DNA from: Thermoplasmata archaeon | Lineage (GTDB): Archaea; Thermoplasmatota; Thermoplasmata; Thermoplasmatales; Thermoplasmataceae | Reading direction: 5' to 3' | DNA length: 23,120 nucleotides | NCBI GenBank assembly: GCA_021833045.1 | Contig: JAKBGP010000008.1 | Span: 1 to 23,120, forward strand | The notes under the pieces: generated by a model | Database searches by the model: none | What the model was told of the DNA's origin: nothing | Seen by the model: the letters and a program-made list of their open reading frames with translations, nothing else | Shown: one piece after another, positions 10,196 to 16,237 of the stretch | Layout of the letters: the number at the start of each line of letters is the position of its first letter | Position numbering within the stretch: the stretch's first letter is position 1 | Position numbers and translations under genes: made by a program

Positions 10196-11346
10196 CTTAT
10201 GTTTATCTTTTTCAATTCAGCCATTCCAATGGGGAGCATTACCATAGAAATTGCTGCAAGGAACAACCATGAAACAAATTGGTTGATTGAATATACATAA
10301 CCAAAGACGGATGCTATTATAGCTCCTGCAGCGATCTGGATCCCATTCATTATAGAAATTCCAAGTGGAACATATTTCTCTTCTTTTTCAATCCTGATCA
10401 CATAGAAATATTCCAGCGAGAAGAGAATAATACTCATAACTCCACTTGCTGCCGAGGCAAAGAAAAGATAATCTGGAAACCCTAGTGCCTGTATTGCAAC
10501 TATTATGCATATAGTTATTAGAAACGATGGAAGAATTACCGCAGGTGAACCGATGTGAATTCTTCTGTAAATAAATAACCCAAATATTCCTGCAAATAGG
10601 GCAAGAGAACCGATGAGCCCTGCAACAGTAGGATTAAACCCAAGAACCTGGGCAAAAGATTTTTCATATTCTCCAAAAGTGAAATTCATCCCCCAATACC
10701 CTGAGAGGGCGAGGGAAAGAAGTATGAGGGGCTTTGAGAAGAATCTTGATTTTACGTTTTTCCTGAAATCCTTACTGCTGCCTTTTTTGAATGTCTTAGG
10801 AATGAAAAGGATTCCACATATGGTAAAAATCAGTGTGACAATTCCGGAAATTAGAAGAAGATTCTGCCAGGAGAACATCGGAGAAAGAAATGAGAACAAT
10901 AATATTCCTATACCCCCACCAATTGAAAAAGCAGTGTTGAATACTGCAAGGTTAGTGGAGGATTTTGTCCGATCTATCTCATAAAGAACTCCAACACCCG
11001 ATGAGAAGAAGAATGCAGCACCTACTCCAACCATGAACCTAGAAATCAGGAATATTAAGAAATCCGGTGAGAAAATAGATAGAATAATGGCAATTGACAT
11101 AATTATCATTCCGGACATGGCCGTGTTTTTTGCACCAATCTTTGCAGCTATGAGTCCCGAAGGAATCTGAAACAGTGCCGTACCAAGCAGAAAGGCGGAG
11201 AGTATCAATCCGCTAAGATAGAATGGGGTTCCGTATGCATTGAGGATGTTGAAAAGGAGAGGGGATACATTGTACCAATTCATTGCGTAAAGGACTCTGA
11301 GGATGAGCATTATTGTAATACTCCCCCGTACCCCGAAACTTTTCAT
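10192..11346 (-). CDS. major facilitator superfamily transporter (second copy, different subfamily)
   Basis: A 384-residue MFS protein with about 12 hydrophobic segments. After TM2 it has GLIAAKIGAKNTA, a weaker motif A lacking the usual aspartate. A helix around residues 100-120 reads RFMVGVGAAFFFSSG, typical of the N-terminal half of MFS proteins. It shares no long identity with the neighbouring MFS gene, so this is not a tandem duplication. ATG 11346 overlaps the stop of the asparagine-synthase-like gene by ATGA, a strong sign of translational coupling. The natural reading is an enzyme-transporter pair, with this protein moving either a substrate or a product of that ATPase. Confidence 0.85.
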   Translation of the reverse strand: MKSFGVRGSITIMLILRVLYAMNWYNVSPLLFNILNAYGTPFYLSGLILSAFLLGTALFQIPSGLIAAKIGAKNTAMSGMIIMSIAIILSIFSPDFLIFLISRFMVGVGAAFFFSSGVGVLYEIDRTKSSTNLAVFNTAFSIGGGIGILLFSFLSPMFSWQNLLLISGIVTLIFTICGILFIPKTFKKGSSKDFRKNVKSRFFSKPLILLSLALSGYWGMNFTFGEYEKSFAQVLGFNPTVAGLIGSLALFAGIFGLFIYRRIHIGSPAVILPSFLITICIIVAIQALGFPDYLFFASAASGVMSIILFSLEYFYVIRIEKEEKYVPLGISIMNGIQIAAGAIIASVFGYVYSINQFVSWLFLAAISMVMLPIGMAELKKINIS

Positions 11347-12071
11347 CTGTTGTTTCCTCGCGGTAATTCTTTCTTTAGAAACCTATTGATTCCAGAACCG
11401 TACTGTGCTGCTTTTTTTGGCCTGTGAATGATGAAGTCAGGCAATCCTGCGATTCTTGCGGCTTCCCTGATTATAATCTTGTTTTCTTCGGCTGATACAT
11501 GCATTTCATAAGGAAGTACGGAAAAGGAGTCAAGTATATTTCTGTCAAGATAGGGAGTAATTAGAGTTTTTCCACTGGATGATCCTATTCTCATCTCTCT
11601 TGGCAATGTTGTGGTGAACAGTTTTTCCAGGCTTTTCCTGTTACTATTTTCCCTGCCATCCCTGAATTTCATGTATCCATAGAAAATCTCATCTGCTCCC
11701 TGTCCAGTCATAATCTTACCCTGTTTCACATGATCGCATGCGATCTGGAATACAGTCTCAAAACCGATATCTGTAAAAGTTATGTTTTTGTCCGTTTCTA
11801 TAACCTTCATGAATGCTTTCCTAACCATTTCTTCCCCAGTTTCGATGATATTAAGATTCAGGGAAAATTCATTGCAAAGTTTTTCTGAAAATGAAATATC
11901 CTGGCTTTCGGGAAATCCTATTGTGTAGGGTATGATTTTGTCCATATAGATGGAAAGAAGAAGCGAACTGTCTATTCCTCCAGAAAAAAGAAGCGCAGTC
12001 TTATAACTTATGGATTCATGCTGATCTCCAAGCATCTTTAAAAGAAGTTTTGCCCGGGAAATGACATCCAT
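11343..12071 (-). CDS. standalone asparagine-synthase (AsnB C-terminal) domain protein
   Basis: A 242-residue N-type ATP pyrophosphatase resembling only the synthetase half of AsnB. The PP-loop is LLFSGGIDSS (residues 27-36), followed by TGQGADEIFYGY (122-133), ITPYLDRNILD and a C-terminal HRPKKAAQYGSG. The N-terminal glutaminase domain of true AsnB, with its catalytic Cys2, is missing, so it would need free ammonia or another amine, or it may adenylate a different carboxylate. Similar standalone proteins occur in other archaea without assigned function, and lasso-peptide cyclases are relatives. It is the first gene of a two-gene operon with an MFS transporter (4-nt overlap) and is divergent from the PIN-ATPase gene across only 51 nt. 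Confidence 0.8.
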   Translation of the reverse strand: MDVISRAKLLLKMLGDQHESISYKTALLFSGGIDSSLLLSIYMDKIIPYTIGFPESQDISFSEKLCNEFSLNLNIIETGEEMVRKAFMKVIETDKNITFTDIGFETVFQIACDHVKQGKIMTGQGADEIFYGYMKFRDGRENSNRKSLEKLFTTTLPREMRIGSSSGKTLITPYLDRNILDSFSVLPYEMHVSAEENKIIIREAARIAGLPDFIIHRPKKAAQYGSGINRFLKKELPRGNNR

Positions 12072-14383: not shown

Positions 14384-15388
14384 TCAGAGCGATATTTCTC
14401 CCGGTATTTTTGGAAATGGATGCGTGTATTCTATTCTGCTATAGCCGCATATATATCTTATGAATCTTTCGATGCCTATTCCAAAACCTGCAGAAGGAAA
14501 CAGGCCGTGCGATGCGATTTCCGTAAAAATACGGAACTGCTCAGGGTCCTGATCCTTCGCCTTAATTCTCTCAAGAATTCTTTCCAGCTTGTATTCTCTT
14601 TCACCGCCACTGATTCCCTCACCGAAACCCTCAGGATATATGAGGTCCATGTCTCTAAGGATGCCTGGTTCATCTTCCTTCTCTCTGTCATAGAATTCCC
14701 TTTCCTTAAGAGGTATATCAATAATCCAGAATGGATATTTTTCCTTGGAAGATGCTTCTGCTTCAAAATCCTGGCCGTATTTGTCTTTCAATTCCATGTA
14801 TTTAAACTTCTTGAACTGCACCGATGGAATGGAAATTTTCCTTTCTAGTTTCTCAAGGTCTTCATAATTGGTATCTTTCACGTCATTCACTGCTTCCCTT
14901 ATGATTGATTCTGCAATGGTCATCACATCCTCCCTGCTGGCATCCCTGACCTCCACATCCAACTGTGTGAATTCCAGAAGGTGCCTTCCCGTTTTTTTCT
15001 TATCAGGTATTTCCAACCTGACATTGGGAGAAAACGTGTATATTTTCGGGAACTTTTTTACGAGAATCTGCTTGTGAAATATCATGCTCTTTGTAAGAGC
15101 ATATTCTGTACCTTCATACTTGAATCTGGGATCATAAACAGGATGGTTCAGCGGATCAGTTACCATTGAATATATCACGGGAGGGATTTCCATGAAACCC
15201 ATCCATCTCAATTTTTTTGCCATTGAAGCCCTGACAGTTGTGTTGATCCTCATTGCTATTGCTACAGATTCACTTTCCAGATGCTTCAGCGTGGATTCTA
15301 TTATATTCTTCTCCTTATAACTTTCCATAAGGTTATGATAAAAATTTAGTATTTCACTTTTATCTATTAAATGTAGACATAATGTCAT
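14384..15388 (-). CDS. archaeal asparagine synthetase related to Asp/AsnRS (AS-AR type)
   Basis: A class II aaRS catalytic core without the OB-fold anticodon-binding domain; 334 residues, compared with about 294 for Pyrococcus abyssi AS-AR, an AsnRS paralogue shown to make asparagine from aspartate and ammonia. Shared features are MVTDPLNHP, LTKSMIFHKQ, the motif 2-like FSPNVRLE, LEFTQLDVEV, FYDRE, the catalytic loop ISGGEREY and the motif 3 GIGIERFIRYICG. The start is uncertain: ATG 15388 gives an N-terminal extension, while ATG 15328 (314 aa) fits better with the strong AT box at 15394-15408. Divergent from an Lrp/AsnC regulator with GACATAATGTC elements in between. The alternative, a lysyl/aspartyl-tRNA synthetase fragment, is less likely because the core is complete. 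Confidence 0.85.
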   Translation of the reverse strand: MTLCLHLIDKSEILNFYHNLMESYKEKNIIESTLKHLESESVAIAMRINTTVRASMAKKLRWMGFMEIPPVIYSMVTDPLNHPVYDPRFKYEGTEYALTKSMIFHKQILVKKFPKIYTFSPNVRLEIPDKKKTGRHLLEFTQLDVEVRDASREDVMTIAESIIREAVNDVKDTNYEDLEKLERKISIPSVQFKKFKYMELKDKYGQDFEAEASSKEKYPFWIIDIPLKEREFYDREKEDEPGILRDMDLIYPEGFGEGISGGEREYKLERILERIKAKDQDPEQFRIFTEIASHGLFPSAGFGIGIERFIRYICGYSRIEYTHPFPKIPGEISL

Positions 15389-15393
15389 AAAGT

Positions 15394-15408
15394 AAATATT
15401 TTATATCA
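15394..15408 (-). promoter_or_regulatory. TATA-like box for AS-AR
   Basis: On the minus strand GATATAAAATATTTA would place transcription start near 15378, inside operator site 1. That would favour ATG 15328 as the translation start of AS-AR, with a leader of about 50 nt. Confidence 0.4.
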
Positions 15409-15424
15409 TTAGTCAACATAATGT

Positions 15425-15437
15425 CAATATTTTTATC
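15425..15437 (+). promoter_or_regulatory. TATA-like promoter of the lrp/asnC gene
   Basis: CAATATTTTTATC is centred about 27 nt upstream of the ATG at 15458 with no Shine-Dalgarno sequence. It lies between operator sites 2 and 3. Confidence 0.45.
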
Positions 15438-15457
15438 TAAAGTCGACATAAGTTTTC

Positions 15458-15889
15458 ATGGATAAAAAAGACATAGAAATCATGAAATGCTTAACTGAGA
15501 ACAGCAGGGAAAAAATAGCGGATATTTCAAGAGAGTTAGGAATTCCAAGAATAACAGTTTATGAAAGAATTAAAGGGCTTGTTGAAAGGGGTGTGATAAA
15601 AAAATTCACGATTGTTCCGGATTATACTGCCATAGGCCTTCCAGTGGTAGCATTTATTTTTGTCTCATTCAGGAATACGGGAAAATTATCCCAGAGAGAC
15701 CTTGCAAAAACAATCTCCAGTTTTCAGGAAGTTGATGAGATCTATATCATTGCTGGACAGTGGGATATTCTTGTGAAAATTAGAGCAAGAGACACAGAAG
15801 AAGTGGGAAGTTTTGTTCTCGACAAGTTGAGAGTTATCGATGGTGTCCAGAATACAGAAACAATCAGTGTATTTTCAGTGGTAAAGTAA
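15458..15889 (+). CDS. Lrp/AsnC-family transcription regulator
   Basis: A 143-residue protein with an N-terminal helix-turn-helix (about 3-60; ADISRELGIPRITVYERIKGL) and a C-terminal RAM/Lrp-AsnC ligand-binding domain, in which AGQWDILVKI occupies the usual G-x-(Y/W)-D position. Members form octamers that bind DNA and sense amino acids. The gene is divergent from the aaRS-derived asparagine synthetase, an arrangement like E. coli asnC/asnA, so asparagine is the natural candidate effector (inference). Three related sequence elements flank its promoter, suggesting autoregulation. ATG 15458 with a TATA box 27 nt upstream supports the start and a leaderless mRNA. Confidence 0.92.
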   Translation: MDKKDIEIMKCLTENSREKIADISRELGIPRITVYERIKGLVERGVIKKFTIVPDYTAIGLPVVAFIFVSFRNTGKLSQRDLAKTISSFQEVDEIYIIAGQWDILVKIRARDTEEVGSFVLDKLRVIDGVQNTETISVFSVVK

Positions 15890-16144: not shown

Positions 16145-16237
16145 TGCCGGGATCGGGGGTCGAACCCGAGACCTCCGGATTTCTCAGTTATAAGATAACA
16201 TATGAGTCCGGCGCTCCACCAGCTAAGCCACCCCGGC
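16145..16237 (-). tRNA. tRNA-Met(CAT), elongator type, with a 20-nt BHB intron
   Basis: The cloverleaf is complete. Acceptor GCCGGGG pairs with TCCCGGC (one G-U), D stem is GCTT/GAGC, anticodon stem is CCGGA/TCCGG, and T stem is TCGGG/CCCGA with loop TTCGACC. The loop CTCATAA gives anticodon CAT. G1-C72 excludes the archaeal initiator (A1-U72); tRNA-Ile2 with agmatidine is the remaining alternative. A 20-nt intron occupies 16181-16200, after position 37. It forms a textbook bulge-helix-bulge: 4-bp central helix CTCA/TGAG, 3-nt bulges TAT and AAA, and an inner GTTAT/ATAAC hairpin with loop CTT. Mature length is 73 nt; CCA is not encoded. It begins 7 nt after the eS1 stop with no clear promoter in between. 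Confidence 0.95.

Follow-up and report, generated by a model that had tools for sequence, protein, structure and literature searches.

A divergent Lrp-family regulator and an aaRS-derived asparagine synthetase with conserved operator-like boxes between them: a candidate archaeal counterpart of asnC-asnA

The asparagine synthetase AsnA is related to the class II aminoacyl-tRNA synthetases (aaRS), and both AsnA and the archaeal enzyme AS-AR are of aaRS origin. In Escherichia coli, asnA lies divergent from asnC, whose product, a regulator of the Lrp/AsnC family, senses asparagine and regulates both itself and asnA (accessible portion of PMC4177876); a 1985 title among the references of that paper names AsnC as an activator. 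Archaeal Lrp dimers bind imperfect inverted repeats of 13 to 17 bp that are clustered on one helix face, and they also bind their own control regions (accessible portion of PMC2995911). Within that portion, table 2 of this 2010 review contains no asparagine synthetase among archaeal Lrp targets, and the available excerpts of two other papers mention proteins of both kinds for archaeal proteomes but draw no connection between them (PMC7285479, PMC4463584). We found no report of an Lrp-regulated archaeal AS-AR in a literature that was mostly open access, with the Suzuki-group papers on Thermoplasma volcanium regulators outside it.

Here, we describe a locus in a 23,120-nucleotide stretch of a Thermoplasmata archaeon contig (JAKBGP010000008.1; the window) at which an Lrp/AsnC-family regulator and an AS-AR gene are divergent, with conserved operator-like sites between them (Table 1). 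We infer the operator role of these sites from conservation and covariation. The E. coli unit is already known; what would be new is an archaeal AS-AR/Lrp version of it. The intergenic region is of comparable size (151 bp in E. coli MG1655 and 129 bp in the window), whereas the enzyme (AsnA in E. coli, AS-AR here) and the promoters, which are archaeal here, differ.

Table 1. Features of the AS-AR/lrp locus (positions in the window)
Feature	Position	Strand	Description
AS-AR asparagine synthetase, AspRS/AsnRS-related	14384..15328	-	314 aa from ATG 15328; PF00152, NF005054; best PDB matches 1nnh and 3p8t
Possible AS-AR TATA region	15349..15357	-	~25 nt before ATG 15328; aligns with an A/T block kept in relatives
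Box 1, GACATAATGTC	15376..15386	.	48-58 bp upstream of ATG 15328; -82 from lrp ATG; conserved in register
Box 2, AACATAATGTC	15415..15425	.	Directly upstream of lrp TATA-like stretch; -43 from lrp ATG; conserved in register
Probable lrp TATA region, AATATTTTTATC	15426..15437	+	Centre ~26 nt before ATG; T/A block after box 2 conserved
Half box, GACATAA	15445..15451	+	-13 from lrp ATG; exact in sequence
Lrp/AsnC-family regulator	15458..15889	+	143 aa; above-cut-off matches to PF13404/PF13412 (helix-turn-helix) and PF01037 (ligand domain)

Judged by its domains, the minus-strand product is an AS-AR-type asparagine synthetase. Its sole Pfam domain, the catalytic part (tRNA-synt_2; residues 36 to 327), is AspRS/AsnRS-like and comes without an N-terminal anticodon-binding domain, the alignment to 1wyd beginning at residue 130 of that protein, and the NCBIfam asparagine synthetase A model scores 386.6 bits (cut-off, 309). 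The longest open reading frame extends upstream to an ATG at 15388; in a relative with a 96% identical enzyme (P0001; 314 aa, MESYKEKN), however, the start corresponds to ATG 15328, and most aligned relatives start within a few residues of it, so that the enzyme probably starts there and the intergenic region measures 129 bp. Box 1 overlaps the upstream ATG, and the first-pass annotation had the elements covering the AS-AR start region. Because relatives begin at or near 15328, this placement is unlikely, and the palindrome would stand upstream of the enzyme instead. The candidate TATA region of AS-AR is poor in the window itself. The nearest genome compared has 96% of sampled words in common with the window, and the nearest named contig, among the best 80 of 513 confirmed loci, is a Thermoplasmata archaeon with a 92% identical enzyme.

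The plus-strand product carries an N-terminal AsnC-type helix-turn-helix and a C-terminal ligand-binding domain, and together with the above-cut-off synthetase match this bears out the earlier reading of the pair as an AsnC-like regulator divergent from an aaRS-derived asparagine synthetase. It scored below the cut-offs of both the NCBIfam AsnC equivalog NF008384 (64.2 bits; cut-off, 227) and the LysM model NF040947 (90.9 bits; cut-off, 180), and over the whole protein it is 27% identical to E. coli AsnC. A tree built from 132 Lrp rows placed 104 of the 105 AS-AR-linked Lrps in one clade (support 95/80), together with 17 rows that are unlinked or convergent; outside this clade lie E. coli AsnC and the other Thermoplasma paralogues. 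The tree is limited by its few columns and its long branches, that of AsnC among them. Orthology with AsnC was not supported by either the model score or the tree. The same regulatory logic had been proposed to have "arisen or been kept" with a non-orthologous enzyme; since the regulator falls below the AsnC model cut-off and AsnC lies outside the linked clade, arisen is the likelier half of that proposal and kept the less likely. One compared genome (G076), which we take to be T. volcanium, carries four genes with an AsnC domain, one of which adjoins AS-AR. TvFL3 is presumably a LysM-like one among the others and probably another paralogue than the AS-AR-linked Lrp. It is an Lrp-type protein from a related genus whose specificity has been measured (accessible portion of PMC4177876), and its effector is given as Lys (accessible portion of PMC2995911).

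All three words named in the first-pass annotation, the two boxes and the half box, are exact at the positions in Table 1, and box 1 is the perfect palindrome it was said to be, with GACAT/ATGTC arms that are exact inverted repeats around a single central A. On sequence grounds, we consider it very likely that the boxes are operators of the neighboring Lrp, whose dimers would control both genes. Lrp dimers would bind GWCATNNTGWC-like sites over ~75 bp of the shared control region. With box 2 directly adjoining the TATA-like stretch of lrp and the half box close to the start, the arrangement is suited to autorepression, and Lrp most likely represses its own promoter. Bound at box 1, which immediately precedes the AS-AR promoter, it would set expression of the synthetase; the place of this box would suit activation, though it may serve repression instead. 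Asparagine or a related metabolite would be the effector. Clustered inverted repeats aligned by helical turns are likewise found with FL11, LysM, Ss-LrpB, and Ptr2, with centers two or three turns apart in characterized archaeal Lrps (accessible portion of PMC2995911), compared to nearly four turns between boxes 1 and 2 (39 bp center to center; mostly 40 to 41 bp in relatives).

The divergent pair is widespread. Across 200 Thermoplasmata genomes, a divergent Lrp was found at 50 of 64 AS-AR loci (27/30 in the first set and 23/34 in the rest; E values up to 4.4e-42, the rows below being open frames of AspRS/AsnRS length), and at one of the 64, L039, the Lrp gene is convergent with AS-AR. Among the named loci (best 80 of 513 confirmed), 63 were divergent, 2 were convergent, 4 were too near a contig end, and 11 were without the pair, including four on contigs with Caldiserica-type titles. 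The linked Lrp subfamily occurs in Thermoplasmatota and at loci titled Methanofastidiosia. With GWCATWATGWC, a consensus read off clade A and family f3 by eye, we found a box with at most two mismatches within 150 bp upstream of the enzyme at 88 of 105 loci with a divergent Lrp, leaving 17 without one, but at only 2 of the 21 where no divergent Lrp is present (L147 and L061); at one mismatch or fewer, the counts were 47/105 and 1/21 (L147). The 21-locus control left out the contig-edge loci L043, L137, L194, L195, and L198, the contig repeats L056 and L057, and L030/L074 and L186.

These distributions bear on an alternative that we regard as unlikely, namely, that the boxes serve autoregulation of lrp only, with AS-AR a passive neighbor and another amino acid (lysine, glutamine, or aspartate) as effector. 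It draws on the boxes found on the lrp side, at positions -13 to -21 relative to the start of lrp, in family f3, L174, L024, g30, and part of AUK/Dive; in the f3 intergenic region, CGTCATTATGACG or a near form typically separates a TATA-like stretch from the start of lrp. Archaeal Lrp effectors are also diverse, as table 1 of the review indicates, and the best PDB matches of the window Lrp are chains of PH1519 (FL11), whose effectors are Lys, Arg, and Gln (accessible portion of PMC2995911). However, most loci by far across a deep subfamily retain the linkage to AS-AR, box 1 of clade A stands on the AS-AR side, and, as counted above, AS-AR genes without a divergent Lrp seldom have a box before them; these observations speak against this alternative.

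Assignment of the boxes to the linked Lrp gains from covariation with its recognition helix, in which residue x of the PRxT motif can be either V/I or A/T. When the core CATNWTG was kept constant, proteins with V/I had boxes with GACAT on both sides in 17 cases, GTCAT on both in 0, mixed in 13, and another base on one side in 7, whereas A/T proteins had 0, 19, 4, and 11, respectively; two I-plasma-like boxes in this anchored count have T on the readable side, contrary to the rule. A plain count of all GNCAT half-sites gave an odds ratio of only 2.9 (P = 6e-4; phylogeny disregarded) and is noisy partly because start-codon GTCATG words enter it, which the anchored count avoids by omitting the start codon. 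Both counts omit L068, the helix position was unreadable in three rows (all half-sites) and one row (anchored), and the core and outer-letter rule were fixed after a first look at the data. These sequence comparisons offer good supporting evidence that the helix residue covaries with the second half-site base. We read this as support, not proof, because phylogeny leaves few changes (clade A; the L174 group versus its sister f3), perhaps two or three independent contrasts.

Genome-wide, the motif was no more frequent than its reversed control (198 versus 292 matches over 14 genomes). Across 77 genomes, the two-box pattern gave 19 rows, of which 8 (7 genomes) were at the AS-AR/lrp locus and 11 elsewhere, against 13 control rows. 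The box-plus-TATA pattern at three mismatches or fewer likewise showed no excess in these 77 genomes (63 rows versus 62 in the control); 9 of 9 rows at one mismatch or fewer and 13 of 14 at two or fewer were at the AS-AR/lrp locus, from which the pattern itself was drawn. Because these counts show no genome-wide excess, the regulator looks local, as AsnC is described. A wider regulon was tried and rejected, the pattern counts being close to or below the controls and the sole other exact palindrome in genome G001 lying inside an open reading frame. It would be quite improbable, clearly more so than pure autoregulation, that the boxes are sites for a different DNA-binding protein or promoter elements of a general kind: box 2 does abut a TATA-like stretch, but the motif is not in excess across genomes, the boxes accompany the linked Lrp, and their sequence covaries with its recognition helix. 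In genome G083, which we take to be T. acidophilum, we also observed double boxes at L213 (~1523) and L224 (~1525), one preceding an amino acid permease and the other flanked by MFS-like genes on both sides; these are partly kept in near relatives and were not seen in more distant ones.

Conservation in close relatives further sets the boxes apart from their surroundings. Over 28 relatives (Lrp 52 to 74% identical), the mean best mismatch to GACATAATGTC was 1.68, compared to 3.56 (standard deviation, 0.13) in shuffles, and sites with at most three mismatches numbered 59, compared to 14.5 in shuffles (largest, 26). Matches with two mismatches or fewer kept their register: 30 of 32 lay at -82 to -89, -43 to -45, or -11 from the lrp ATG, and five relatives have GATATTTTGTC at -11. 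Four of the 28 (L003, L080, L081, and L105) have nothing better than three mismatches to the word of the first-pass annotation. Intergenic lengths were 109 to 136 bp, mostly 129 to 134 bp, with starts chosen automatically. When 24 of the 29 clade-A sequences were aligned (five near-copies left out), the best-conserved 11-base noncoding stretches began at 15413 to 15415 and 15374, i.e., at boxes 2 and 1. The 81 loci reduced to 72 distinct intergenic regions, among them that of the convergent L039, which was removed afterwards; the shuffle tests and box counts take no account of common descent.

Within the window, the motif word alone is unremarkable, since matches with at most two mismatches (10) are close to expectation (8.6); what is remarkable is the clustering at this locus. 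The 129-bp intergenic region holds two sites with at most one mismatch, a number that dinucleotide shuffling reached in 0 of 20,000 trials, with a single site appearing in 73. In a motif-free version, in which an 11-mer with exact arms is repeated with at most one mismatch, 42 of 5,000 shuffles were positive; in the real window, 8 of 2,300 tiles were positive, all overlapping and all at the AS-AR/lrp locus.

The consensus also extends beyond the lineages from which it was drawn. With nine further groups equally weighted, GWCATWATGWC ranked first of 120 half-site-permuted palindromes (2.00 mismatches; the runner-up, at 2.12, is a near variant of it), in a test that was not blind, because the regions had already been inspected when the consensus was written, and whose group "other" includes L103, also in clade A. 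Mean mismatches versus shuffles were 0.67 versus 3.06 (L174), 1.00 versus 3.09 (L024), 1.80 versus 3.34 (AUK/Dive), 2.00 versus 3.04 (Methanofastidiosia-like), 2.20 versus 3.03 (g63/61), 2.30 versus 3.17 (g30), and 2.77 versus 3.15 (I-plasma-like). Boxes were absent from g54 (3.50 versus 3.20), core-pattern boxes were found in 0 of 4 rows each of g54 and the Methanofastidiosia-like group, though their pairs are linked, and a box with at most one mismatch occurred in 2 of 13 I-plasma-like rows. The conservation expected by the first-pass annotation in relatives that keep the pair thus holds in most lineages, but fails in g54 and is weak in the I-plasma-like and Methanofastidiosia-like groups. 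Chance palindromes in AT-rich DNA would match the unexceptional window total, but the in-register conservation, the 20,000 shuffles, the rank of the consensus, and the contrast between linked and unlinked loci make them an explanation we dismiss, and by these sequence comparisons the boxes behave as conserved footprints.

Box number and position vary among clades. Because the start-proximal box is the most widely shared, we take it to be the older operator and the boxes at -44 and -84 to have been added within clade A, an order that we infer; the half box in the window may be the counterpart of the start-proximal box. In several family f3 members (L042 to L063), a second recurring inverted repeat, roughly CGGATANTATCCG, was noted by eye midway between the enzyme and lrp.

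Tentatively, and with a little less than even confidence, we propose that the locus is an asparagine switch of the archaea's own, independent of that of bacteria: an Lrp subfamily tied early to the aaRS-derived synthetase would sense asparagine, with flips between GACAT and GTCAT co-evolving with the helix position. If true, archaea, in which few regulatory circuits are known, would have arrived at the same control logic through another regulator subfamily and another enzyme. Such a switch would suggest an effector for a large Lrp subfamily, would predict the operator in dozens of genomes, and would pair one helix residue with one half-site base in a simple testable rule.

Several loci depart from the common arrangement. 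In the E-plasma genome G163, AS-AR and lrp are apart, and the lrp relatives are without a clear full box. At L106 to L109 (G163 and G216 to G218), where the subfamily lrp is not beside AS-AR, a shared GACAATT or GACAAAT precedes the TATA-like stretch, with no full boxes. Genome G239 has two separate AS-AR/Lrp pairs in one assembly (L083 and L110), each with boxes, which may reflect duplication or strain mixture. AS-AR was also present on contigs titled Caldiserica, Caldisericales, or Caldisericaceae (L166, L169, L180, and L203), without an Lrp neighbor or a box within two mismatches; these copies may represent transfer to bacteria or binning error.

Other features of the window were noted in passing. 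At 493 to 503, the minus strand carries GACATAATATC, which differs from the motif by one mismatch and extends over the start (499) of an SOR/SNZ (pdxS-like) gene. A 242-aa protein encoded at 11343 to 12071 (minus strand), adjoining an MFS gene, has PF00733 (asparagine synthase) as its only Pfam match and no glutaminase part. Between lrp and the ribosomal S3Ae gene lies a tRNA gene (16145 to 16237, minus strand) that was found by Rfam, not by ARAGORN, and that by eye seems to bear an intron.
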